Below are positions 8,508-22,907 of a stretch of DNA of 22,907 nt, piece after piece. The stretch is from a virus. The notes under the pieces are model-generated. The model did not search any database and was not told the origin of the DNA. It was given only the letters and a program-made list of their open reading frames with translations. The stretch covers positions 1 to 22,907 of IMG/VR virus record IMGVR_UViG_3300025083_000246, one strand, 5' to 3'. Position numbers and translations under genes: made by a program. The number at the start of each line of letters is the position of its first letter. The stretch's first letter is position 1.

Positions 8508-11500
8508 TGTTTGATGCATCAAAGGTAGTAATGCCGCAACTAGAAGCGGACGTTGGCTTAATAGCTGAAAGAGACAAGGCATCATTTACTGAAACCCTTG
8601 GCGCTTTAATAGGTCAGTATGAGCCTGTTGTTACAAACTTTGTAGATTCTTTTGATCGTGAGATGCTTCAAGAAGACCCTGACTTTGATGTAGCTAAGGG
8701 GGTTTTTGATTTACCAGAAGAGTATCACGAGTATAGCTCTGCGCTTCTCTACGCAAAGAACGATCAGCACCTAAACTATCTGGTTAATCGTGTTGATGGG
8801 ATGATCGAGCGCAGACAAACAATACAAAACTCTACGGTCGGCAATGTATTGCTGGCTTCTTTCTTTGACCCAATCAATCTTATTTCTCTGCCTATTGGTG
8901 TGACCACTGGCGTTGCTAAAAGCGCATTGCGTACTGGCGTTGCAACATCAGCTATTGTTGCCGGTCAAGAAGCCCTGTTTGCTACTACAGATCCAACAAA
9001 AACATTGGGTGAAGCTGCTATTGGTATTGGTACTGCTGGTATTGCTGGTGGAGCTTTAGGTGCTATTGGCGGGTTTGTTAAAGGTAAGTTCTCTGGCGAT
9101 GTTGTGACCAAGGTTGCAAATGATATTGACGATGAGGTGGAGGCAATGAGTGGCCCTGCTGATCCTACACTTGCTGAGAACTGGTGGACAGATAGTTGGA
9201 TGTTTAGGCTTGCCACGTCACCCTTTAAAAAGAACATGACAAACAAAAAAGCCCCAATCACTGTTAAACAATTTCACTATGGTATCTCTGGTGATAACGG
9301 GATGCTAACCAAAGCGCATCAGAATGGCAAAACATTAGGGCGCAGCGTAAACTTAGACAAAGCAAACTATCAGGCTGAAATGCACCAGCTATACAATGAT
9401 ATGTTCACTGTCTTTGCTAGAGCAGATAACAAAGGCGTTACTAAGATATTTGATTATGCTTTTGATGGGGTAAAGCCTCGTCAAAAAGATATGATGAAGT
9501 TCTTTGATATTGCTTCTCGTAAAAGAATTACCAAAGCAGAGCCAGCAAACGCATATGAAGCTGAGATGATTAGCTTGCTAGATAAGTTTTATGGCAAATG
9601 GGAAACCCGCCTAACTGAAACTGGCTTAATGGGTACAAGGACTTTCTATGAAAAGCAGCAGGAGTTCTGGGGTAAGATTATTGCTAGGCGTGAGGATGGG
9701 TTAAAAAGTTTAGAGCGCCGTAATGGTGTTACCAAAATAAACAATAAGCTTACAGATTATGGAAAGAAAATAGCTGAGTTTAAAAACAAGATTGCTGAAT
9801 ACAAGGCTCACCTAGATGAAGTGAATGAAACCGTTGAGTTCTTAAAGGGACAGGATGGAATGAAGCCACCCAATGAGGATGTGTTCTTTCCTCGTTATTG
9901 GAATGCTGATGCTATCACAAGGAACAGGGACAAGCTCGTTGCAATATTAGCTGACTGGTACAAGAAGAATCCTCAGACAATCATGTTTACACCTGAGAGT
10001 CCCATCACAAGAGTAGACCTTGATACTAGTCCTGAAGCTATTCTGCGCAGAGCTAATGAAACTGTAGATAAGATTATAAAGACTGATGATGAGGGTGCAT
10101 TTGAGAACGCCTTCTTTGGCTACGGAAAGTCTAAGCACTTCATGCATCGCGCTCTGGATATACCTAATGAGTTGGTCCTAGACTTTATTCATACTAATCC
10201 ATTTGAAGTTTCCATGCAGTACAATGCGCGTGTTGCTCCACGCTATGCATTTGCCAAGAAGTTTGATGGGCGCAGCTTTGATGAAATGCTTGATGAGCAA
10301 GTGTTTGATATGATGTTAAACACAAAGATGGATCTTGATGAAATCAATGAGGTCGCAGCTAATATCCGGACTGACTATGATCGGGTAATGAATGCAACAC
10401 TTCGCAAGCCTCACACCTTTTCACAGAAAGCTGTTCAGCGTCTTCGTGAGGTTGCTTCACTAAACTATCTTGGGTCTGCTGGTATTGCTTCTATTTCTGA
10501 GTTCGGCCGCATCATGGCAGAGCATGGTGTTGGTAAAACAATGAAGGGCTTGATTGCTAGGCATACAGATCAGAAGGTAAAGCTGTCAGTCAAGGAGGCT
10601 GCTAAAGCTGGTGAGGCTCTCGAGGGAATGTTCTTGAGCGCTGGTATGCGTTTCTCTGACGATCTGGCTTCTAACCCATTGTATCACAATCTGTGGGAAA
10701 GAGGCGTTGATGCGTTCTACATTCTCAATGGCTTGACCCCGATTACAAAGTATCTCAAGGAACTAGATGCTGTTGTAAGGCAGGATCACATTATAGATAT
10801 TGCAAAGCGTAAGCTTGATGGTGATGAGGTAGCGCAGTCTGAGCTAGAGTATGTTCGTCGCTATGACCTAGACGATAAGACATTAGATACTATTGCAAAG
10901 GCTAATTGGGAGCGCAGTGACAGTGGTCTTATCTATGCAAATACAGATGCATGGCAGAGCACATCACAAATAGCAGCAAAGGAAAAGCTTCAAACTGCAA
11001 TGAGCAGCGGGATTCTTAACACTATTATGACCGCTACACCGGCAGATAAGCCAAGGCTTATGGATGGCGTTGCTCTTGTTCCAATGAGTATAGCTAGAAA
11101 TATTCCGGGCCTTACACCTGATCCAAAGTACAAAGGCTATGCGCGAATTGAATCACCGCTTCTTGGCTTACCGCTTCAGTTCTATTCGTTTACCTTGGCT
11201 GCGGTGAACAAAACAACGACCGCCTATACAACGGGTCAAATGAAGTCTCCTTTATTTGGAACCATGTGGATGATGGGCATGGCTTACTTTGCGCTTGAGT
11301 TAAAGTCTCGCACCACCAAAGGCGGTGAACGTGCTTGGGATGACACTGCTATGTCGGACAAGTTGATTAGAGCCTTTGATTATTCGGGCGCTGCTGGGTT
11401 GTACTCAGATATGTTCTACACTTCGATGCATACTTCTATGGCATTGACTGGCAAGAACTACATGGAGGGTATTGTTAGCCCCAAGTTCCCTGAAGAGAAA

Positions 11501-11734
11501 AGTTATGTCGGTGCATTTACTGGCTTAGCTGGTGCTGGCCCTAGTATTGCTGCTGATTATGCTGCTGCAATGAATGAAATGCTTACTGGTGATTTAGGAG
11601 AAGGTACTAAGGATTTGGTTAGGAAGCTGCCCTACACTAAGCTTTGGTTTTTGTCTCAGCTAACCAATGAGTTCTCTTCTGCTTTAGGCAATAGCCTTGA
11701 TGATGATCGGATTGAGGGCTTTAGGCGATACTAA
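8507..11734 (+). CDS. Large internal virion protein, T7 gp16-like, with hydrophobic region
   Basis: The 1075-residue product has a strongly hydrophobic Ala/Gly-rich region at about residues 112-192 (VLLASFFDPINLISLPIGV ... AAIGIGTAGIAGGALGAIGG), able to form membrane-inserting helices. A charged coiled-coil stretch lies near residues 420-448 (KKIAEFKNKIAEYKAHLDEV). The long helical remainder ends with conserved-looking aromatic blocks such as 'SPLLGLPLQFYSFTLAAVNK'. T7 gp16 spans the inner membrane during ejection, and this protein is the natural counterpart. Unlike T7 gp16 I see no N-terminal soluble lytic transglycosylase signature, so any peptidoglycan-cutting activity in the virion must be absent or elsewhere. 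It begins by TAATG overlap and is the last gene before a 56-base hairpin gap. Confidence 0.7.
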   Translation: MFDASKVVMPQLEADVGLIAERDKASFTETLGALIGQYEPVVTNFVDSFDREMLQEDPDFDVAKGVFDLPEEYHEYSSALLYAKNDQHLNYLVNRVDGMIERRQTIQNSTVGNVLLASFFDPINLISLPIGVTTGVAKSALRTGVATSAIVAGQEALFATTDPTKTLGEAAIGIGTAGIAGGALGAIGGFVKGKFSGDVVTKVANDIDDEVEAMSGPADPTLAENWWTDSWMFRLATSPFKKNMTNKKAPITVKQFHYGISGDNGMLTKAHQNGKTLGRSVNLDKANYQAEMHQLYNDMFTVFARADNKGVTKIFDYAFDGVKPRQKDMMKFFDIASRKRITKAEPANAYEAEMISLLDKFYGKWETRLTETGLMGTRTFYEKQQEFWGKIIARREDGLKSLERRNGVTKINNKLTDYGKKIAEFKNKIAEYKAHLDEVNETVEFLKGQDGMKPPNEDVFFPRYWNADAITRNRDKLVAILADWYKKNPQTIMFTPESPITRVDLDTSPEAILRRANETVDKIIKTDDEGAFENAFFGYGKSKHFMHRALDIPNELVLDFIHTNPFEVSMQYNARVAPRYAFAKKFDGRSFDEMLDEQVFDMMLNTKMDLDEINEVAANIRTDYDRVMNATLRKPHTFSQKAVQRLREVASLNYLGSAGIASISEFGRIMAEHGVGKTMKGLIARHTDQKVKLSVKEAAKAGEALEGMFLSAGMRFSDDLASNPLYHNLWERGVDAFYILNGLTPITKYLKELDAVVRQDHIIDIAKRKLDGDEVAQSELEYVRRYDLDDKTLDTIAKANWERSDSGLIYANTDAWQSTSQIAAKEKLQTAMSSGILNTIMTATPADKPRLMDGVALVPMSIARNIPGLTPDPKYKGYARIESPLLGLPLQFYSFTLAAVNKTTTAYTTGQMKSPLFGTMWMMGMAYFALELKSRTTKGGERAWDDTAMSDKLIRAFDYSGAAGLYSDMFYTSMHTSMALTGKNYMEGIVSPKFPEEKSYVGAFTGLAGAGPSIAADYAAAMNEMLTGDLGEGTKDLVRKLPYTKLWFLSQLTNEFSSALGNSLDDDRIEGFRRY

Positions 11735-11743
11735 TTGTGCGTT

Positions 11744-11788
11744 GTGATTCCCCCCTTTGATTGTTATTCGAATAAAAAAGGGGATCAC
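11744..11788 (+). promoter_or_regulatory. Hairpin enclosing the tail-fibre ribosome-binding site
   Basis: GTGAT (11744-11748) pairs with ATCAC (11784-11788); after a one-base bulge CCCC pairs with GGGG (11780-11783), and the CTTT/AAA tract can extend the stem. The loop side contains a perfect 12-base palindrome TTATTCGAATAA at 11764-11775. The fibre gene's only good Shine-Dalgarno (AAGGGG, ending 11783) sits in the 3' arm, 7 bases before the ATG at 11791. The structure could hold fibre translation down, serve as an RNase III-type processing site, or weakly terminate transcription. Confidence 0.6.
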
Positions 11789-11790
11789 GG

Positions 11791-14253
11791 ATGACAATTA
11801 ACCTATCAGACAACTCTCCTCGCGTATCCTATAGTGTTGCTGCGGGGGTTACTCAGACATCATTTACTGTTTCGTTTGAGTTCTTTGATAATGATGACTT
11901 AAATGTGTATGTTGATGGTGTTCTGAAAACGCTAACAACAGATTACTCTGTGTCTGGTGGTGATGGATCTACTGGGACAATCACAATGTCTGTTACTGGA
12001 GCCTCTGGTGGCTCTACAGTGGTTATTACACGCGACATAGACTTAGACCGCACGACTGATTTCCCCTCTTCTGGCCCCTTTAATATCGCCTCTCTTAACA
12101 CAGAGCTTGATCGCTTTGTTGCTATTGCTGCTGACCTTAAAGATCAATCTGATCGAGCGTTGCAGCTTACAGATTATGACTCTGCCGTTGGCTTGACCCT
12201 ACCAGAAGTTGATGATCGCAAGGGTAAGACGTTAGCATTTAATTCAAGCACTGGTGCTGTTGAAGCTGGCCCTACTATTTCTGATGTCCAATCTGTTTCT
12301 GACGCTGCCGCTGATATTCAAACATTAGCACATATTGAGGATGGGACTGACGCTACCGATGCGATTCAAACTGTTGCTGGGATTGCATCTGATGTGCCCA
12401 CAGTTGCGGGTATAAGCTCAAACGTCACAACGGTAGCTGGCATATCTTCTGATGTAACTGCGGTTGCTGGCGATGCAACTGACATCTCAACTGTTGCTGG
12501 TATATCTACAGAAATAGGAAGGTTAGGCACTGCCGATGCGGTGTCAGATTTAAATACCCTTGGCACTGCTGATGTCGTAGCTGACATGAATACATTGGGC
12601 ACTGCGTTAAACGTAACAAATATGAACACAGTTGCTAGTTCAATTACAAACGTGAATACAGTTGCAACAAATATATCTGATATAAATAATTTTTCAGATG
12701 TTTATCGTGTTGATAGCTCAGACCCAACGACAGACTTAGACGAAGGTGATTTAGCCTACAATACTACATCAAACAATTTAAAGTATTACAACGGCACAAA
12801 CTGGGTTTCTATTGAGGCAGCTGGCAGCACAGTTCTTGTAAGTAATGATGGCACTACGCTTACAACAGCAGCATCACTATTAAACTTTACTGGCACTGGG
12901 GTTGTTGCATCAGGCACTGGCGCAATTAAAGATATTACCATTACAAATACCGAATATCCCCTTTCTGACTTTGCAAATAATGGCCTTATGTCATCAACTG
13001 ACAATCAAAAGCTGTATTATATTGAAGAGCTTGCTGAGGAAAATGTTCCATCTTTTAGAACAATTCAAGTTTCTGGTGAAACAGATGTAGTAGCTGGTAA
13101 TAAAGAAGATACTCTTACTTTTGAAGCTGGAACACATACTCAAATTTATACAAGTGCAGCAAACAAAAGGGTATCAATCAGATCAACACTTGTTGACGCA
13201 ACAACAAGCGTTGCTGGTCTTATGTCAGCAAGCGATAAAACCAAAATAAATGGCATTGATGCAAGCGCTAATAATTATTCCTTACCAACTGCATCGGCTA
13301 GCGTTTTAGGTGGAATTAAAATTGGTGCTGGTCTTTCGATTGATGGTTCTGGTGTTGTAACTTCTTCTGGTTCTGGTGGCCTTAGCAATGTTGTGGATGA
13401 TACTACGCCTCAACTAGGTGGTAATCTTGATGTAAATGGTAATGACATTGTCTCAACGTCTAATGGTGCAATTGATTTAGATCCAAATGGCTCAGGCAAG
13501 GTTACATTTAAAGGGAATGCCACACGAGGTGCTGGTCAGTTTGTTTTAAACTGTGAGCAAAACTCACACGGGATTACAATCAGGGGCCCAGCGCATAGTG
13601 CGGGTGCAAGCTATACGCTTACGCTCCCAGACAACGATGGATCTAGCGGCCAAAGTTTAATTACGGATGGCTCTGGGAATACATCTTGGTCAACTATAAG
13701 TGGCGGTGGCGGCGGTGGTGCTGACCTTTATGCTGCTAATGAAAGCTCACCTACAGCCCAGCCGAGTGCAACTGGCGCTAATGCTGTAGCGATTGGAGAC
13801 AGCTCATTAGCTGCTTTAGTCGGCAAGCTTGCCTATGCGAGTGGTCAATTTGCTGCATCTGGTGATGCACAGGGCGGTCAGTTTATTCTTCGTGCAGATA
13901 CTACAGACGCAACTGCAACAGTTCTTACAGCAAACAACAGTACAGCGGGAAGCGCCAACCAAATTGTAGCAGCCTCTGATACAGCTATCACCTTTGATGG
14001 CACTATCACTGCCATGCAAAACGGCGCACAAGCTTATGCATCATGGAAGATCGAAGGGTTGATAGTGAATGACGGCGGTACAACCACATTGGTTAATTCT
14101 GCAACCACAGTAATCTCAAATGCAGATAGCTGGGGAATGGCTCTCTCCACTGATAACACCAATAACGCGCTTGCCATTACATGCACTGGTGAAGCTGCGC
14201 ATAACATACGTTGGGTGGCTAACATTAGAACCACTGAATGTACGTTTTCATAA
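11791..14253 (+). CDS. Tail fibre protein with T7 gp17-like N-terminus
   Basis: The 820-residue protein opens with the tail-attachment domain (about residues 1-130: 'RVSYSVAAGVTQTSFTVSFEFFDNDDLNVYVDGVLKT...DYSVSGGDGSTGTITMS...VVITRDIDLDRTTDF...LNTELDRFVAIAADLKDQSDRAL'), the pattern of the T7 tail-fibre N-terminal family. Residues about 165-305 are a shaft of short repeats (VAGISSDV-, LGTADAV-, MNTVASSI-type units). Next come recognisable fibre modules: 'GDLAYNTTSNNLKYYNGTNWV', 'LMSASDKTKINGIDASANNYSLP...VLGGIKIGAGLSIDGSGVV' and 'VVDDTTPQLGGNLDVNGNDI'. A poly-Gly hinge lies near residues 637-642. The C-terminal domain has 'ATGANAVAIGDSSLA', resembling YadA-like beta-roll repeats. The protein should attach to the nozzle as a trimer and bind the host surface or scaffold further LamG receptor-binding proteins encoded downstream. 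Ribosome site lies inside a hairpin. Confidence 0.8.
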   Translation: MTINLSDNSPRVSYSVAAGVTQTSFTVSFEFFDNDDLNVYVDGVLKTLTTDYSVSGGDGSTGTITMSVTGASGGSTVVITRDIDLDRTTDFPSSGPFNIASLNTELDRFVAIAADLKDQSDRALQLTDYDSAVGLTLPEVDDRKGKTLAFNSSTGAVEAGPTISDVQSVSDAAADIQTLAHIEDGTDATDAIQTVAGIASDVPTVAGISSNVTTVAGISSDVTAVAGDATDISTVAGISTEIGRLGTADAVSDLNTLGTADVVADMNTLGTALNVTNMNTVASSITNVNTVATNISDINNFSDVYRVDSSDPTTDLDEGDLAYNTTSNNLKYYNGTNWVSIEAAGSTVLVSNDGTTLTTAASLLNFTGTGVVASGTGAIKDITITNTEYPLSDFANNGLMSSTDNQKLYYIEELAEENVPSFRTIQVSGETDVVAGNKEDTLTFEAGTHTQIYTSAANKRVSIRSTLVDATTSVAGLMSASDKTKINGIDASANNYSLPTASASVLGGIKIGAGLSIDGSGVVTSSGSGGLSNVVDDTTPQLGGNLDVNGNDIVSTSNGAIDLDPNGSGKVTFKGNATRGAGQFVLNCEQNSHGITIRGPAHSAGASYTLTLPDNDGSSGQSLITDGSGNTSWSTISGGGGGGADLYAANESSPTAQPSATGANAVAIGDSSLAALVGKLAYASGQFAASGDAQGGQFILRADTTDATATVLTANNSTAGSANQIVAASDTAITFDGTITAMQNGAQAYASWKIEGLIVNDGGTTTLVNSATTVISNADSWGMALSTDNTNNALAITCTGEAAHNIRWVANIRTTECTFS

Positions 14254-14263
14254 GGAGTAATCA

Positions 14264-15289
14264 ATGGCACTTGTCATAGACTATTCAACTGGGTTCTTCG
14301 AGGCCACACCTTCGGGTGAGGGTGTTGGTACAGATCCTGCAACCATAGGTGATCCCAGCTTTGGTGATGTAAGTTTGCTGCTTCATGGAAATGGCGCAAG
14401 CGGTAGTACGACATTTACAGATAGTTCATCTAACGCTGTTGTTGTTACAGCAAATGGAAATGCACAGATAGACACAGCGATTAAGAAGTTTGGAACAGGG
14501 TCTATTCAATTTGATGGGACTAATGATTATCTTTCGGCAGGAACGTCTCTTGGTAATTTTGGGACTGGCGACTTTACAATAGAAATGTGGGTTTACCCGA
14601 CTAATTCTAGTTACTACAGAGGTTTATTTAGCAAAACTACTTACACAGGCAGCGCTTCACCTCCCTCAATTTCTGCATACATGAATAATACTGCTCTTCT
14701 TGTTGGAGTTAATTCCGGCTCTGCTACAGGCTCATGGAATACTTGTTCTGCATTACCTGCTTTAAATCAATGGAGCCATATAGCAATTTGCAGATCAGGC
14801 ACTAACCTTCGTTGTTTTTTAAATGGTACATCTATTTTAAATGTAACAAATAATGCGGATGTAGATAACTCAGACACACTAAGGATTGGATATTGGCGCA
14901 ATTCGAGTGAACACTTTGAGGGCTACATGGATGATATACGGTTTAGCGGCACTGCCAGATACACCAGCACATTCACACCACCTACCGCTGCCTTCTTAGA
15001 CAATGGCCCAACGCTTGACCTTTCATCAGGTAACGTCTTCAGCCACGCCCCGTCTGCTAACGTAGCTTACGCCTTCACCAACCCGCCAAGCTCTGGCACC
15101 TCATACGACTTCACGCTTAAAGTCACGCCATCTGCCACGGTGACAATCACATGGCCCTCTTCTGTAGAATGGCCCTCTGGCACAGCACCCGCAGCCCCTG
15201 CCTCTGGAGAGACCGACGTATATACGTTCTTCACGACTGATGGTGGGTCTACTTATTACGGTAATCAAGTAGGGGATGCTGTGTCATGA
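14264..15289 (+). CDS. LamG/concanavalin-like tail protein, tandem paralogue 1
   Basis: The 341-residue product has three parts. A short N-terminal tag (MALVIDYSTGFFEATPSG) comes first. A LamG/concanavalin-like beta-sandwich follows, about residues 36-240: it starts 'DVSLLLHGNGASGSTTFTDSSSNAVVVTANGNAQIDT', then 'KKFGTGSIQFDGTNDYLS', 'FTIEMWVYP', 'WSHIAICRSGTNLRCFLNG' and 'GYMDDIRFSGTARYTSTFTPPTAAF'. A C-terminal module (about 245-341) has 'LDLSSGNVFSHAPSANVAYAF' and 'VTPSATVTITWPSSVEWPSGTAP'. LamG domains bind carbohydrates or proteins, so a receptor-binding or virion-decorating role is likely. An AGGAG ribosome site precedes the start. Ends in an ATGA overlap with paralogue 2. There is no catalytic motif. 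Confidence 0.75.
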   Translation: MALVIDYSTGFFEATPSGEGVGTDPATIGDPSFGDVSLLLHGNGASGSTTFTDSSSNAVVVTANGNAQIDTAIKKFGTGSIQFDGTNDYLSAGTSLGNFGTGDFTIEMWVYPTNSSYYRGLFSKTTYTGSASPPSISAYMNNTALLVGVNSGSATGSWNTCSALPALNQWSHIAICRSGTNLRCFLNGTSILNVTNNADVDNSDTLRIGYWRNSSEHFEGYMDDIRFSGTARYTSTFTPPTAAFLDNGPTLDLSSGNVFSHAPSANVAYAFTNPPSSGTSYDFTLKVTPSATVTITWPSSVEWPSGTAPAAPASGETDVYTFFTTDGGSTYYGNQVGDAVS

Positions 15290-16329
15290 GCGTAGTCTTA
15301 GATTATACAGGCGGTGTATTTGCTGCAAAGCCTACTGGTGGCAGCTTGGGTACTGACCCAGCAAGCATAGGTGATACTAACTTTGCTGATGTGTCTTTGC
15401 TTCTGCATGGTGATGGCACAAGCGGTAGTACGACTATTACGGATAGTTCATCTAACGCTGTTGCTGTTACTGCCAATGGAAATGCTCAGATTGATACGGC
15501 TATTAAGAAGTTTGGGTCTGGGTCTATAGAGTTTGATGGCACGGGTGATTACTTAACTTTAGGGTCAGGTACTCCTAATTATCCAAACTTTGGCACGGGG
15601 CCATTCACAATTGAAATGTGGATATACAACACAACATCTGGCTCACAAGCTCTATTCAATACACATCGTGCAGGTGTTTCTAGTGGAATGTATTTCAGTA
15701 TTAATACTAACAATGCTTTAATTCACGGTAGTTTTGGAAATGGTGATAATGGCAATAATATTACCGCTAACAATGTTATCTCCCTAAACACTTGGCATCA
15801 TATCGCACTTTGTCGTGAGGGAACTGGAACAAACCAAACTAAAATATTTGTCGATGGCACGGCTGTATTGACGTACACTGATGCAAGTAATTACGCATCG
15901 TACACTTACGGTCCGTATTTAGCTTCATATGACGCTGGGGGAACCACGGCTGAATACATTGGTTATGTAGACGAGTTTCGAATTTCTACTGTCGCCAGAT
16001 ACACTAGTAACTTCACCGCACCCACAGCCGCATTCAGCAATACCGGCCCAACGTTAGACCTTTCGTCTGGCAACACGTTTGTTCACGCACCGTCTGCTAA
16101 TGTGGCATATGAATTTGCTAATCCACCAGCCAGTGGAACAGCTATTGATTTCACACTGAAGGTTACGCCGTCTGCCACAGTGACAATCACTTGGCCTTCG
16201 TCTGTAAAATGGGCTGGCGGTACAGCACCATCAGCACCATCGTCTGGCGAGGCTGATGCGTTTACTTTTTACAGCACAGACGGCGGCAGCACATACTACG
16301 GCTTCCACGCAGGAGATGCATATTCATGA
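15286..16329 (+). CDS. LamG/concanavalin-like tail protein, tandem paralogue 2
   Basis: The 347-residue product repeats the layout of the preceding gene: N-terminal tag MSVVLDYTGGVFAAKPTG, a LamG core beginning 'DVSLLLHGDGTSGSTTITDSSSNAVAVTANGNAQIDT' and ending 'GYVDEFRISTVARYTSNFTAPTAAF', and the C-terminal module 'LDLSSGNTFVHAPSANVAYEF...VTPSATVTITWPSSVKWAGGTAP'. At DNA level a 22-base stretch at 15442-15463 is identical to 14420-14441, so the two genes share recent ancestry or exchange sequence. The middle of the LamG core, the likely ligand-facing part, is clearly different. It overlaps both neighbours by ATGA, implying translational coupling. Likely a receptor-binding or decoration protein; no activity is visible. 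Confidence 0.75.
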   Translation: MSVVLDYTGGVFAAKPTGGSLGTDPASIGDTNFADVSLLLHGDGTSGSTTITDSSSNAVAVTANGNAQIDTAIKKFGSGSIEFDGTGDYLTLGSGTPNYPNFGTGPFTIEMWIYNTTSGSQALFNTHRAGVSSGMYFSINTNNALIHGSFGNGDNGNNITANNVISLNTWHHIALCREGTGTNQTKIFVDGTAVLTYTDASNYASYTYGPYLASYDAGGTTAEYIGYVDEFRISTVARYTSNFTAPTAAFSNTGPTLDLSSGNTFVHAPSANVAYEFANPPASGTAIDFTLKVTPSATVTITWPSSVKWAGGTAPSAPSSGEADAFTFYSTDGGSTYYGFHAGDAYS

Positions 16330-17333
16330 GCGTTTTATTAGATTATAGCTCTGGTGCTTTTGCAGCCAATCAAGCGCAGGGTGTTGGGGCAGTCACGGCT
16401 AATGATGCTAGTTTTGCTGATGTAAGTTTGCTTCTGCATGGAGATGGCACAAGTGGAAGCACTACGATTACTGACAGTAGCTCTAACTCAGTATCTTTAA
16501 CTGTTACCGGTAATACGCAAATTGATACAGCGGTTAAGAAATTTGGAACTGGCTCTATACAATTTGATGGTTCAGGTGATCAATTATCCTTTACTAACAC
16601 TGGCTTTGGAACTGGTGACTTTACATATGAAGCGTGGGTTTATCCCGAAAGCCAAACGCAACGATTTCCAACCTGTTTTAGAGTTGTAAACGATGCTTTG
16701 ACAGCGAATAAAGTTACAGTCCAGTACGATCATGAGATTGCAGCAGATAAGTTTAGGTTTAATGTTGGTACCGATCTTATTTTAAGCGCTACAAAAACTG
16801 CCAACCAATGGTATCATATTGCCGTAGTTAGATCAGGTACAACTTTAACTTTTTATTTAGACGGTGTTTCTGTAGGCACTCACAGCTATTCTTACAACGT
16901 GCCTTCAAACACTGTTTTTATAGGCGGTGATGTTGCGGCTTCTTCCGATACGCCATTTAAAGGTTTTATCGACGAGCTTCGCATTACCAAAGGTGTGGCC
17001 CGTTACACATCTAACTTCACGCCGCCTACCGCTGCTTTCTTAAACTCTGGCCCTACATTGGATCTTTCCAGCGGCACCTACTTCAGCTACACCCCATCAG
17101 CCAACACCACGTTTGCATTCAGCAATGCACCAGCATCTGGCACGGCGGCTGGCTTTGCTTTGGCGGTTACTCCAAGCGCCACAGTTGCGCTAACTTATCC
17201 TTCATCAGTAGAGTGGCCCAGCGGCACAGCCCCAGATGCACCGGCTAGCGGTGAGACAGATGTGCTTGTTTTTCTGACCGACGATGGCGGTACGTCTTAT
17301 CAAGGTTTCCAAGCAGGAGATGCAATGTCATGA
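16326..17333 (+). CDS. LamG/concanavalin-like tail protein, tandem paralogue 3
   Basis: The 335-residue product has tag MSVLLDYSSGAFAANQAQG and a LamG core starting 'DVSLLLHGDGTSGSTTITDSSSNSVSLTVTGNTQIDT'. Inside the core are 'FTYEAWVYPES', 'WYHIAVVRSGTTLTFYLDGVSVG' and 'GFIDELRITKGVARYTSNFTPPTAAF'. The C-terminal module 'LDLSSGTYFSYTPSANTTFAF...VTPSATVALTYPSSVEWPSGTAP' matches the other two copies but is the most diverged of the three. It is ATGA-coupled on both sides. Same inferred role as the two preceding genes: virion surface protein with a sugar- or protein-binding fold. Confidence 0.75.
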   Translation: MSVLLDYSSGAFAANQAQGVGAVTANDASFADVSLLLHGDGTSGSTTITDSSSNSVSLTVTGNTQIDTAVKKFGTGSIQFDGSGDQLSFTNTGFGTGDFTYEAWVYPESQTQRFPTCFRVVNDALTANKVTVQYDHEIAADKFRFNVGTDLILSATKTANQWYHIAVVRSGTTLTFYLDGVSVGTHSYSYNVPSNTVFIGGDVAASSDTPFKGFIDELRITKGVARYTSNFTPPTAAFLNSGPTLDLSSGTYFSYTPSANTTFAFSNAPASGTAAGFALAVTPSATVALTYPSSVEWPSGTAPDAPASGETDVLVFLTDDGGTSYQGFQAGDAMS

Positions 17334-17986
17334 GCATATCAAGATTAATGCAAATGGGTGCGGCTGGGGTTACTAAAGTTTACTATAAAGCTACTCAAGA
17401 TTCTACGGAGGGAAGAAATTCATATGTAGACTTGGGCGCTAACTTATTTACAAACGCATACCCTACCTACACCGTAGAGGCTTGGGTTCGACCTTTGCGC
17501 ACACCAACTGGCTCTGGTTGGATTATTGACCAGCATCCAGGTGGTTCTGGTAGACTTATTATAGGCGCTAATAACGGCAACATAGGTGCGTTTTCTGGGA
17601 GTTGGTATGTAACAAGCACCAACTTTGGAAGCACAAGCACTTTTGCTCACCTTGCTTATGTTGCAAAGGGCGATGGAACTATGGAGTTTTTTAAAGATGG
17701 TGTGAGCGTAGGGACATCTGGCGTATATATCACCGTAGCCCCTAACGCACAAAATACATTATGGGGACAAGACACAAACTATGGCGATTTTGGCTGCGAG
17801 TACAGAGGGTTTAGAATTAACTCTACTGAATTATATACAGCCAACTTTACTCCACCCTCTATAGACGGAGGGCTGACAAATGTTTCAGGCACCGTTGCGC
17901 TGTGGAACGGTTTGTCGGGAAGTGCTGTTGATGCTTCTGGAAACAACACTTGGTCTGCAACTAACTTTTCTTTCTCGGAGGTATAA
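17330..17986 (+). CDS. Single-domain LamG-like tail protein without the shared C-terminal module
   Basis: The 218-residue protein starts MSISRLMQMGAAGVTKVYYKATQDSTEGRNSYVDLG, a beginning common in marine phage tail proteins. It then shows one LamG-like sandwich: 'YTVEAWVRPL', 'TFAHLAYVAKGDGTMEFFKDGVSVGTSG', 'EYRGFRINSTELYTANFTPPS'. The N-terminal tag and C-terminal 'PSATVTITWPSSVEW' module of the three preceding paralogues are absent, so it is a more distant relative rather than a fourth copy. It ends 'VALWNGLSGSAVDASGNNTWSATNFSF', also a frequent LamG-protein tail. ATGA overlap upstream; the next gene's ATG follows its TAA directly. Likely a receptor-binding or tail-tip component. Confidence 0.65.
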   Translation: MSISRLMQMGAAGVTKVYYKATQDSTEGRNSYVDLGANLFTNAYPTYTVEAWVRPLRTPTGSGWIIDQHPGGSGRLIIGANNGNIGAFSGSWYVTSTNFGSTSTFAHLAYVAKGDGTMEFFKDGVSVGTSGVYITVAPNAQNTLWGQDTNYGDFGCEYRGFRINSTELYTANFTPPSIDGGLTNVSGTVALWNGLSGSAVDASGNNTWSATNFSFSEV

Positions 17987-18517
17987 ATGCACGTTAAATT
18001 AACAAACGGTCAGCCCGACCAATTCCCTTACACCGTTGGGCAATTTCGCCGTGATAACCCACAGACCAGCTTCCCAAAGCAGATCCCTGACACAATCTTG
18101 CGCCGCTACGGCGTATATCAGGTGACTGAGCTTGAAAAGCCAACCCATGATCCACTGGTGCAAACACTTGTGGCTGGCACACCCGCAAGGGAAGTCATCC
18201 GCATGAAGACAGAGGAAGACTGCACTGACCCTGACACGGGTGAGGTCGATACAGATCAGGTCGGTCAGCCCCTGTATGGCAGCGAGTGGGAAGTAGAACA
18301 CACCGTGCAAAACATGGAGCAATCAACGGCAGAGGCTAACGTAAGATCCAAGCGTGATGGCTTGTTGCAAGAGACTGACTGGATGGCTTTATCTGATGTT
18401 ACAATGTCCGACACAATTACAGCGTATCGACAGGCTCTGCGTGACATCCCAAGTCAAGCTGGCTTTCCTTTCAGTGTCACTTGGCCTTCAAACCCACTTA
18501 GCTCAAATTGGCCATAA
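17987..18517 (+). CDS. Phage tail assembly chaperone-like protein
   Basis: The 176-residue product has an N-terminal part describing a small domain ('YTVGQFRRDNPQTSFPKQIPDTILRRYGVYQV') and a C-terminal helix-plus-motif block 'VRSKRDGLLQETDWMALSDVTMSDTITAYRQALRDIPSQAGFPFSVTWPSNP'. The R-x-x-L-L-x-x-T-D-W...Y-R-Q-x-L-R-D-I-P...W-P signature is shared by phage tail/fibre assembly chaperones and fibre-associated proteins. Family members are thought to help fold or attach tail fibres; here it directly follows the fibre and LamG genes, which fits. GGAGG lies just before the ATG. It might itself be a minor virion component. Confidence 0.7.
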   Translation: MHVKLTNGQPDQFPYTVGQFRRDNPQTSFPKQIPDTILRRYGVYQVTELEKPTHDPLVQTLVAGTPAREVIRMKTEEDCTDPDTGEVDTDQVGQPLYGSEWEVEHTVQNMEQSTAEANVRSKRDGLLQETDWMALSDVTMSDTITAYRQALRDIPSQAGFPFSVTWPSNPLSSNWP

Positions 18518-19392: not shown

Positions 19393-19733
19393 TTGGTCAG
19401 ATTATAGGTGCAGTTGGTGGGCTTGCTACTAGCTATATAGATGGCAAGGCTGCTGTTCAGAAAGCAAACGCTGAGATTAAACTTAAGCAAGCTACTGGTG
19501 AGATGGATTGGGAGCAGTCAGCCATCGAAGCTTCAAAGGATTCTTGGAAGGATGAGCTTTGGACTATAGTTTTTGTAGCTATTCTTTGCATGAACTTCAT
19601 TCCTTCTATGCAAACTGTAATGGCGCAGGGCTTTGCTAATCTAGAAACCACACCACTCTGGGTGCAGTGGGGTATGTATGCCTCTATTGCAGCTAGCTTT
19701 GGAATTAGAACGATGAAGGGATTAAAGAAATGA
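19389..19733 (+). CDS. 3TM holin, GTA-type
   Basis: The 114-residue protein shows the pattern of the three-TM holin family known from gene transfer agents: a Gly/Ala-rich N-terminus 'IGAVGGLATSYIDGKAAVQKANAEIKLK', a central 'WEQSAIEASKDSWKDELWTIVFVAILCMNFIPSM', and a C-terminal 'GFANLETTPLWVQWGMYASIAASFGIRTMKGL'. The S-W-K-D-E-x-x-T...F-I-P...T-P-x-W-x-Q-W...A-S-F-G-I-R residues are the key match. Holins form inner-membrane lesions at a set time so endolysin can reach the wall. It is directly upstream of, and ATGA-coupled to, the endolysin gene. The relation to the Rhodobacter GTA holin hints at alphaproteobacterial hosts, but the family is also wider. Confidence 0.75.
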   Translation: MIGQIIGAVGGLATSYIDGKAAVQKANAEIKLKQATGEMDWEQSAIEASKDSWKDELWTIVFVAILCMNFIPSMQTVMAQGFANLETTPLWVQWGMYASIAASFGIRTMKGLKK

Positions 19734-20188
19734 GTGAGTTTAAACTGAGCAGACGCAGCCTTGACCGGCTCGAAGGGGTCGATGACCGCTTAGTTTCTGT
19801 AGTTAAATACGCAATCACACTTACAAAAACAGACTTCGGAGTCATACAAGGGCTCCGCACAATTGAGCAGCAAAAAGAATTGGTTGCCAAGGGTGCATCA
19901 CAAACCATGAAGTCAAAGCACTTAGATGGTTTGGCTGTTGATCTTATGGCTTACATCAATGGCCGTGGATCTTGGGAGCTAAATCTTTATGACGATCTGG
20001 CTGACGCTATGGCTGAAGCTGCTGATCTTGTTGGCTGCCGTGTGCGTTGGGGTGCTGCTTGGCAGATTGATAACCTTGGTGATTGGGATGGCAGTGCTGA
20101 AGAAGCAATGAATGCTTACATTGATCTAAGAAGAAGTGAAGGCAGAAGGCCATTTATTGATGGCCCTCACTTTGAATTGATGGTATAA
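19730..20188 (+). CDS. Endolysin, M15-family peptidoglycan peptidase
   Basis: The 152-residue protein carries the zinc peptidase M15 signature: 'S62-K-H64-L-D-G-L-A-V-D71-L' and, at the end, 'G-P-H147-F-E149', giving H64, D71 and H147 as predicted zinc ligands, with E149 in the motif's last position. The N-terminal part has the family's 'FGVIQGLRTIEQQKELVAKGASQ' strand-helix (residues 36-58). These VanY/T5-endolysin-like enzymes cut L-Ala-D-Glu or D-Ala-D-Ala bonds in cell-wall peptides. No signal peptide or membrane anchor is present, so export should depend on the holin immediately upstream. The start overlaps the holin stop (ATGA). It is the last plus-strand gene, ending 10 bases from the end of the converging minus-strand gene. 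Confidence 0.85.
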   Translation: MSEFKLSRRSLDRLEGVDDRLVSVVKYAITLTKTDFGVIQGLRTIEQQKELVAKGASQTMKSKHLDGLAVDLMAYINGRGSWELNLYDDLADAMAEAADLVGCRVRWGAAWQIDNLGDWDGSAEEAMNAYIDLRRSEGRRPFIDGPHFELMV

Positions 20189-21646: not shown

Positions 21647-22102
21647 TTACCAGCTACCGTTGCTGCTCTTGCTTCCACTATCTTGATCGTACTTGTTGCC
21701 ATCCATCTTACCTAAGAAGATATCAGCATCGCATCCGATATGTGACAGTGCTTTAGTAAGGCCATCAGTGATAGCCATCTTCGGTGCATCTTCAGCCATA
21801 CGGCCCTTAGCTGCATCAAAGAACTTACGGCACCCTGTGAAGGGGCCAAATGAATTAGAGGGTGTGCCATGCCAGACAGTCACATGCCCTAGCACAGCGC
21901 TATCTCCGTTGCTCACAGGTACAATCTCTGTTGTGTTGTGCCATCCCCAGCCTTCGCCTACAGCACCAAACTCTTCTGTCATTTTTTTGACTTGGTACTG
22001 CGGGTCAATCGCGGTGAATGAACGGCTGCCGAAGCTGACCTTCTTCAGATACTTGGGGTCTGAAGAGGCCAGCCTGTCCCATACGTCGAGGTTATTAGTC
22101 AT
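21647..22102 (-). CDS. Single-strand annealing protein, ERF/Rad52-like
   Basis: The 151-residue product has 'GWGWHNTTEIVPV' (51-63) and 'AEDAPKMAITDGLTKALSHIGCDADIFLGKMDGNKY' (103-138). The D-A-x-K-x-A-x-T-D-x-L-x-K-A-L-S-x-x-G-x-x-A-D-x-F-x-G pattern is shared by phage annealing proteins of the ERF/Rad52 grouping. These coat ssDNA made by an exonuclease and pair it with a homologous strand. The C-terminal tail (139-151) is polar and flexible. Its ATG overlaps the exonuclease stop (TAATG) and AAGGAG lies about 9 bases upstream, so it should be made together with the nuclease. Subfamily cannot be decided by eye. Confidence 0.65.
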   Translation of the reverse strand: MTNNLDVWDRLASSDPKYLKKVSFGSRSFTAIDPQYQVKKMTEEFGAVGEGWGWHNTTEIVPVSNGDSAVLGHVTVWHGTPSNSFGPFTGCRKFFDAAKGRMAEDAPKMAITDGLTKALSHIGCDADIFLGKMDGNKYDQDSGSKSSNGSW

Positions 22103-22872
22103 TAGTTGGTTCTCCTTGTTATGCGAAGTGATCCCCGCTTGTCTCGTTTGATTGTGAGTTGGTCGCAGTAAACTTCTCGTTCGTTATCACCGACCATTTG
22201 TTTGAGGTCTTTCTTAGCGTTCTCAAAGACACGGTTGTGTTCATATCCGTTGATATAGGTAATCGATGCGTCGATAAATTGGTTGTCTCTGCTGGCGTCA
22301 CGCTTGACCATGTTGTCCACCTCAACTTTGTCGATGTTGATTGCTGGCGTATCCACACCAACCGGCTCTTCATCGCGTACAACGTAACCCCAGAAGTCTG
22401 ACACCACCGTCCACATAGAATCGAAATAGCTTTTGTTGTACGATACATAGGCTGATTCCCACCTGCTGTTGCCAAAGATAACTGAGAAGTAAGCGCCATC
22501 AGCATCAGCTAGATGGCAGTACATTTGTATTTGCGGCATGTAGTATTCAATGACATCATCCATATTCTTGTATGGATTAGTATGCTTGGCTTCGACAATG
22601 CGCGTTGCCCACTTAGCATCAATCATACCCTTGGCTGGTACTGGCCCAATCATATCCTCATATTCATGCTGATGATTAGACAGCACACAATCATGCTCTT
22701 GCTCGAACCACTGAAGGTTGAAGTCTTCGGTCCAGCTACCAAGCTGCACTGCAATGTTGCGAGACAGATCATCCGATTCGACACGACCAGTTTTGATTTG
22801 CCAAAGCTCTAACCAATTGCCCTGCATAATTTTTACGCAGTCACTTCCTCCGATGAAACCCTTTCGTTCCAT
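22102..22872 (-). CDS. YqaJ/lambda-type exonuclease
   Basis: The preferred ATG at 22872 has GGAG 6 bases upstream, giving 256 residues; an in-frame ATG at 22884 has no ribosome site, and the frame stays open to the window edge. Counting from 22884, motifs are 'GFIGGSD' (9-15), 'LGSWTEDFNLQWFEQ' with E53, 'GMIDAKW' with D89, 'IVEAKHTNP' with E98 and K100 (the D...E-x-K active site), then 'YYMPQIQMYCHL', the Q-x-Q/H block of the YqaJ family. Such PD-(D/E)XK nucleases digest one strand of duplex DNA from 5' to 3' to give 3' tails for annealing. The annealing-protein gene follows with TAATG overlap, forming a Red-like pair. All predicted metal-binding residues are present. Confidence 0.8.
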   Translation of the reverse strand: MERKGFIGGSDCVKIMQGNWLELWQIKTGRVESDDLSRNIAVQLGSWTEDFNLQWFEQEHDCVLSNHQHEYEDMIGPVPAKGMIDAKWATRIVEAKHTNPYKNMDDVIEYYMPQIQMYCHLADADGAYFSVIFGNSRWESAYVSYNKSYFDSMWTVVSDFWGYVVRDEEPVGVDTPAINIDKVEVDNMVKRDASRDNQFIDASITYINGYEHNRVFENAKKDLKQMVGDNEREVYCDQLTIKRDKRGSLRITRRTN

Positions 22873-22907
22873 TGTGTTCTCCATTATTGTTTTGTTTATA
22901 ACTACTT

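Follow-up and report, generated by a model that had tools for sequence, protein, structure and literature searches.

Swapping of receptor-binding domains is well known, and its units and rules are mostly deduced from comparisons of distant phages. Closest in logic to the locus described here is the tailspike locus of the Ackermannviridae (S117/CBA120 TSP1-4; PMC11414711; PMC7506556), in which receptor-binding genes are adjacent, the assembly parts are conserved and the binding domains are exchanged by recombination. The conserved part of these large trimeric spikes is N-terminal (anchor, XD and TD domains). In engineered phages of this family, recombination between neighbouring spike genes, loss of a gene and a truncated gene keeping its assembly domains have been described (PMC11414711). 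Domain shuffling in tail fibres and spikes has also been surveyed across phages as domain mosaicism of receptor-binding proteins (PMC10684548). Among marine phages, the host-recognition module of Alteromonas phages A5/V22, a tail fibre with a lectin-like head plus its cognate chaperone, is exchanged between distant phages (PMC10579305), and the cobaviruses and RCA roseophages (Lentibacter phage ICBM2, Roseobacter phages CRP-9/CRP-13; PMC6775973, PMC8528129) carry a variable tail-fibre region with chaperones.

Here we analyse a locus of a marine bacterial virus in an IMG/VR virus record of 22,907 bases (the window, by which we mean the whole stretch of DNA analysed). The original prediction, made from its sequence, described three successive LamG genes with shared ends and diverged cores, and proposed either gene duplication with diversification or exchange of cassettes through conserved flanks. 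Comparison of this one locus in close relatives shows the rules of exchange directly: what stays, where domains enter, which cargo is permitted and the hopping of the same cargo from slot to slot. The locus is probably a rack of tail-associated adhesin genes, in which a constant chassis holds exchangeable cargo diversified by recombination.

Array of LamG genes in the window

The features of the window are given below with coordinates, strand where assigned, and identity.

1368-2177, capsid protein (PF19821)
11791..14253, + strand, tail fibre gene upstream of the array (PHROG tail fibre/tail protein matches)
14264..15289, + strand, slot 1 gene, 341 aa: tag, LamG cargo and C-module
14264..14347, + strand, slot 1 N-tag, 28 aa, conserved in slot 1 of relatives
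14348..15010, + strand, slot 1 site A cargo, a LamG domain (PF13385, E 4e-21)
15011..15286, + strand, slot 1 C-module, 92 aa (HMMs of its halves; PHROG tail-fibre C-termini phrog_9017/7760)
between 15130 and 15131, + strand, slot 1 site B, empty, inside the C-module
15286..16329, + strand, slot 2 gene, 347 aa
slot 2 parts: tag 15286-15369; LamG cargo 15370-16050; C-module 16051-16326; empty site B 16170/16171
16326..17333, + strand, slot 3 gene, 335 aa
slot 3 parts: tag about 16326-16403; LamG cargo to 17054; C-module 17055-17330; empty site B 17174/17175
17330..17986, + strand, slot 4 gene, 218 aa (PF13385, E 1e-9), without C-module
slot 4 parts: 13-aa tag 17330-17368, then LamG cargo
17987..18517, + strand, Phage_tail_APC tail-fibre assembly chaperone (PF16778, 71.2 bits against a cut-off of 26.6)
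19730-20188, Peptidase_M15_4 gene, after small genes downstream of the chaperone; probably the endolysin
21647..22102, - strand, possible Rad52/Erf-like annealing protein (PHROG 'exonuclease' family phrog_7838, E 5e-32)
22102..22884, - strand, YqaJ/RecE-like recombination exonuclease (PF09588, E 1.5e-8; phrog_434)

Slots 1 to 3 are ATGA-linked genes (14264-17333), each with an N-tag and a C-module around a diverged LamG core; the 4-nt ATGA overlaps that had been read from the sequence join these three genes, and the junction between slots 3 and 4 is built likewise. Laminin_G_3 (PF13385) was matched in all four genes, with E-values from 7e-25 to 1e-9 and scores of 38.9-88.3 bits against the curated cut-off of 27.6. 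Identity along the length of the aligned copies is mosaic, not evenly diverged. Between copies 1 and 2, amino acid identity is 75-95% in alignment blocks 20-80, 24-41% in 120-240 and 65-85% in 240-355, and the pairs 1/3 and 2/3 show the same profile, with middles as low as 5-12%. Taking the three copies together in 20-column blocks, the ends are 42-95% identical, the minimum being the first tag block, and the middles 5-47%, in agreement with the shared ends and diverged cores first described.

The 22-base run common to copies 1 and 2 (14420-14441 and 15442-15463) is exact, as had been claimed, and is the longest word common to the two, compared with 13 bases at most in codon-shuffled copies. 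The near-identical LamG opening block of the original prediction is present in the copies, but it is partly a feature of the LamG family, because LamG cargo from unrelated loci has this conserved block as well (consensus of A1). Likewise, the fourth gene carries no slot 1-3 tag and no C-module, as supposed, but it does have a conserved tag of its own, MSISRLMQMGAAG (about 13 aa), common to slot 4 of relatives.

The array lies between the tail fibre gene and the Phage_tail_APC chaperone, which closes the array in the window and is also found 3' of the array in relatives, and its C-module falls in tail-fibre PHROG families. On the basis of this gene order and of the PHROG matches, the products are predicted to be located on the virion. 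No match to the C-module was found in Pfam, and its matches in the PDB by sequence were at chance level (best E 0.036). The upstream tail fibre has a C-terminal part that is 75-91% identical in several relatives; its organization follows a similar logic, the last ~130 aa being kept while the body varies, with total lengths of 225 to 1226 aa in relatives.

The window is apparently a fragment, because its last minus-strand gene nears the end and the terminase was not identified. The gene at 21647..22102 is without Pfam match, and its possible identity as a Rad52/Erf-like annealing protein is read from motifs alone. The capsid protein has Pelagibacter phage Hodr as its closest cultured relative (52%). 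A 187-aa ORF (726-1289), lying between the genes for the capsid assembly protein and the capsid protein, possibly encodes a putative acetyltransferase, as described near the capsid genes of cobaviruses. Among cultured phages, the closest counterparts of the tag/C-module or the propeller are mostly in Roseobacter and Lentibacter phages, and a scan of genome contigs with the chaperone for the host gave no relative.

Chassis and cargo sites in related loci

With the first gene of the array, three empty chassis and the chaperone as queries, scans of IMG/VR gave 303 loci besides the window, or 207 sequences once overlaps were removed. Complete slot genes (n = 49, from 26 IMG/VR contigs) were parsed with HMMs of the C-module halves. 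All 49 contain a tag of 26-28 aa (9 aa longer in L168) and a C-module of 92 aa, both slot-specific, and inserts are located at two places. Site A lies where the tag joins the C-module, and site B follows C-module residue 40. Site A contains nothing, a LamG domain (215-236 aa) or a propeller (258-270 aa). At site B there is either no insert or a propeller, of 255-267 aa except in L125 (516 aa). The combinations of A and B were empty/propeller in 15 genes, propeller/propeller in 13, LamG/empty in 10, empty/empty in 9 and LamG/propeller in 2, and propeller/empty was found in none of the 49. Site B thus holds a propeller in 13 of 13 genes with a propeller at site A versus 17 of 36 others (Fisher p 0.0006, uncorrected for shared ancestry). 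In slot 4 of relatives the 13-aa tag is joined to a LamG, propeller, glycine-rich or other domain, without C-module, and ATGA overlaps are present at 52 of 53 neighbouring gene junctions.

Several variants of this plan were observed. The 516-aa insert at site B (L125:4710-6626) is ~2x the usual propeller, with about ten repeats and not five; in the empty slot 1 gene of L168 (6316-6705) nine residues of the tag are duplicated in tandem (PTGEGVGSI twice); and the slot 3 gene at L089:707-1949 lies in two reading frames, by a sequencing frameshift or as a broken gene. A C-terminal extension is present in two genes, L096 slot 3 and L306; the latter extension, of a slot 3 gene (9430-12267), is glycine-rich, as is the slot 4 cargo at L088:1389-2294. 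Between tail fibre and slot 1, several relatives carry a conserved gene of ~101 aa (MAIQNNIA..SQYGIAFNNAYYRIV), which is missing in the window (copies at L104:6454-6759, L112:1716-2021, L125:4405-4710, L234:7686-7991 and L117:1344-1649). The linkers of sites A and B in relatives also differ by state, for example TPSATVTI with site B empty and TGA...ATITYP with site B filled, and the exchanged unit therefore takes in some linker.

The number of chassis genes per locus is one in L104 and L125, two in L166, L288, L293, L103 and L305, and three in the window, L302, L118, L173, L090 and L010. Copy number across relatives is thus one to three slots, plus the tagged fourth gene, and is not fixed. The first gene of L305 combines a slot-1 tag with a slot-2 C-module, as a slot-deleting crossover would leave.

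Structure models

In the model of the slot 1 protein, residues 1-17 of the N-tag are predicted to be disordered (pLDDT <50). The LamG domain is modelled as a jelly-roll, and the model matches phage proteins of the LamG/ConA-like type as well as jelly-roll domains of solved structure; its top structure matches are toxin receptor-binding chains, a likeness of the general fold only, at 9-15% identity. Site B falls in a loop after the strand at 281-287. The propeller cargo is built of ~52-aa repeats. Residues 291-540 of L096 slot 2, modelled with AF2, form five four-stranded blades in a closed ring (pLDDT mostly 91-98), and propellers lead its PDB matches. Only the propeller of this protein was modelled well; the LamG domain and C-module were poor because of a mixed alignment. 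From the sequence and the slot 1 model, we argue that the propeller would be inserted into a folded C-module. LamG domains and propellers are general sugar- or protein-binding folds.

Movement of cargo between slots and phages

The ends of the genes are bound to their slots. In a tree built from the chassis only, the genes group by position, with 3 slot changes versus a mean of 21.7 with shuffled labels, and slot 3 forms one side of a branch (SH-aLRT 99). Among cross-genome chassis pairs with at least 80% identity, 101 of 106 occupy the same slot, and all five exceptions involve one hybrid gene. The cargo moves between slots and phages: at 65% identity or more, 15 cross-genome cargo pairs are in the same place and 18 in different slots or sites (n = 33).

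In L091 slot 3, the nucleotide profile follows window slot 3 at the ends (mostly 82-93%) and window slot 2 in the core (mostly 95-100%; 92% in amino acids). In the triplet test, 226 versus 8 informative sites lie inside one segment, a result equalled in 0 of 10000 shuffles. The same test, again with 0 of 10000 shuffles each, identified the window slot-3 core in L008 slot 2 and the L008 slot-1 core in L091 slot 4. The exchanged segments are codons 51-224 (L091 slot 3), 49-225 (L008 slot 2) and 72-215 (L091 slot 4). The window slot-3 core is present also in L091 slot 2 and, more distantly, in L103 slot 1, while L090 slot 1 has kept its ends with another core (31-52% nucleotide identity over most of the core). 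Propellers have moved as well. The one at site B of L302 slot 3 is 92% identical to that at site B of L305 slot 1, a change of slot, and the one at site A of L010 slot 3 is 92% identical to that at site B of L103 slot 3, a change of site. Within one genome, L090, the cores in slots 1 and 4 are 91% alike, and the slot 4 tag is kept in relatives while its cargo is replaced. The change is local: in L092, the downstream genes on the lysis side are 98-100% identical in amino acids to those of the window, but the slot 3 LamG is only 58% identical and the slot 4 cargo is different.

The crossovers fall at the cargo edges, within the opening and closing blocks of LamG and outside the tag and C-module, which refines the original proposal of exchange through conserved flanks. 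L168 slot 2 was rejected as a carrier of the slot-1 core, since only the shared opening block was covered and 1921 of 10000 shuffles were as good. Concerted evolution, that is gene conversion of the ends, was also rejected, as the ends resemble the same slot elsewhere and not their neighbours in the same genome. Based on near-identical cargo in different slots of relatives, cassette exchange is strongly supported: cores move and ends stay.

Empty chassis

Nine of the 49 genes are empty at both sites and encode proteins of 118-129 aa. In the pairs tested, dN/dS is 0.10-0.14 when empty chassis are compared with one another and 0.11-0.23 when they are compared with the ends of filled genes (a pair whose dS was saturated is excluded), indicating purifying selection. 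Empty chassis are therefore likely to be working proteins and not remnants, which raises the question of the role of a tail protein without a binding domain.

Proposed mechanism and alternatives

In the mechanism we propose, the N-tag would dock the protein on the tail, the C-module would help folding or assembly, and the downstream Phage_tail_APC chaperone would serve the array. The LamG or propeller cargo, judged from its fold, may bind glycans of the host or of particles, and it is plausible that several putative binding proteins are present on one virion. The pattern of exchange fits homologous recombination at the conserved cargo edges, which would move the cargo. The phage's own exonuclease/annealing pair is a plausible candidate for the agent; phage recombinases of the YqaJ/Rad52/Erf type tolerate diverged sequence (PMC3945230). 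With somewhat less assurance than the rack itself, we favour a fuller reading, in which position-specific chassis, functional even when empty, offer two sockets for unrelated ligand-binding folds and the cargo is copied within and between genomes. If so, one phage could load, unload and rearrange several binding proteins while virion assembly is undisturbed, and, if the proteins are on the virion, the locus would be a natural system for the evolution of host range or surface attachment.

The same rack might serve another purpose, the adhesins binding particles, mucus-like or free polysaccharides and so keeping virions where hosts live, while the tail fibre alone sets host range. This is unlikely, yet it agrees with the general sugar- or protein-binding character of the LamG and propeller folds and with the separate tail fibre upstream. 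The observations fit this purpose and receptor binding alike; a location next to the tail-fibre chaperone speaks for a tail role.

Duplication in tandem, after which the middles diverged faster under diversifying selection and no exchange took place, would also produce three tandem paralogues with conserved ends and diverged middles. As the sole process it is improbable and already contradicted by the triplet tests, because core and ends differ in history (a slot-2 core within slot-3 ends in L091, a slot-3 core within slot-2 ends in L008), and in relatives the cargo is absent or swapped for an unrelated fold. Tandem duplication remains true for the origin of the slots. Of the two processes originally proposed, exchange therefore stands and plain duplication is insufficient; it was not foreseen that the cargo may be absent or a propeller, and that the fourth gene is likewise a slot, marked by a tag of its own.

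Since the relatives all come from metagenome contigs, in which repeated domains confuse assemblers, the mosaics could in principle be chimeras from mixed phage populations. We regard this as very improbable: L087 (whole array) and L086 (slots 3-4) encode proteins identical to those of the window, so the array did not arise by misassembly of a single record; contigs from several samples show exchange, and its edges coincide in L091 and L008; and empty chassis are under purifying selection and the architectures recur.

A programmed switch of the cores by a diversity-generating retroelement, for which receptor-binding proteins are usual targets in phages (PMC10743442), or by an invertible tail-fibre cassette is scarcely credible, since whole domains change, even to unrelated folds, and the window bears no sign of it: in this 22.9-kb fragment of an incomplete genome neither a reverse-transcriptase-like ORF (the sole YxDD-type match lies inside the slot 1 LamG) nor a template repeat was found, and no long inverted repeats flank the cores in the window.

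Comparison with known systems

A literature search of partial coverage found no description of such an array. Among the cobaviruses and RCA roseophages, C-module relatives are found in CRP-4, CRP-9, CRP-13 and CRP-603 and propeller relatives in ICBM2 and CRP phages, all with less than 50% identity to the array genes. A tandem array of slots was not seen in the annotated stretches of their tail-fibre regions, and the propeller gene of ICBM2, unlike the array, has its own chaperone. In A5/V22 whole modules are exchanged, whereas here cargo smaller than a gene passes between neighbouring slots. The mosaicism survey (PMC10684548), the text of which does not contain the words LamG, propeller or tandem, covers many phages, while the present locus shows a fixed frame, entry sites and slot-to-slot moves at one place.

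With the Ackermannviridae locus, the array shares adjacent genes with conserved assembly and variable binding parts. XD and TD assembly domains gave no Pfam or PHROG match in the slots, and the N-tag is only 26-28 aa. By analogy, the array would work like the branched tailspike complex of the Ackermannviridae without being a member of that group. In contrast to those spikes, the cargo here is enclosed between a short tag and a C-module, two sockets are provided, empty genes occur naturally, and the cargo consists of LamG domains and propellers that move among neighbouring slots in nature.
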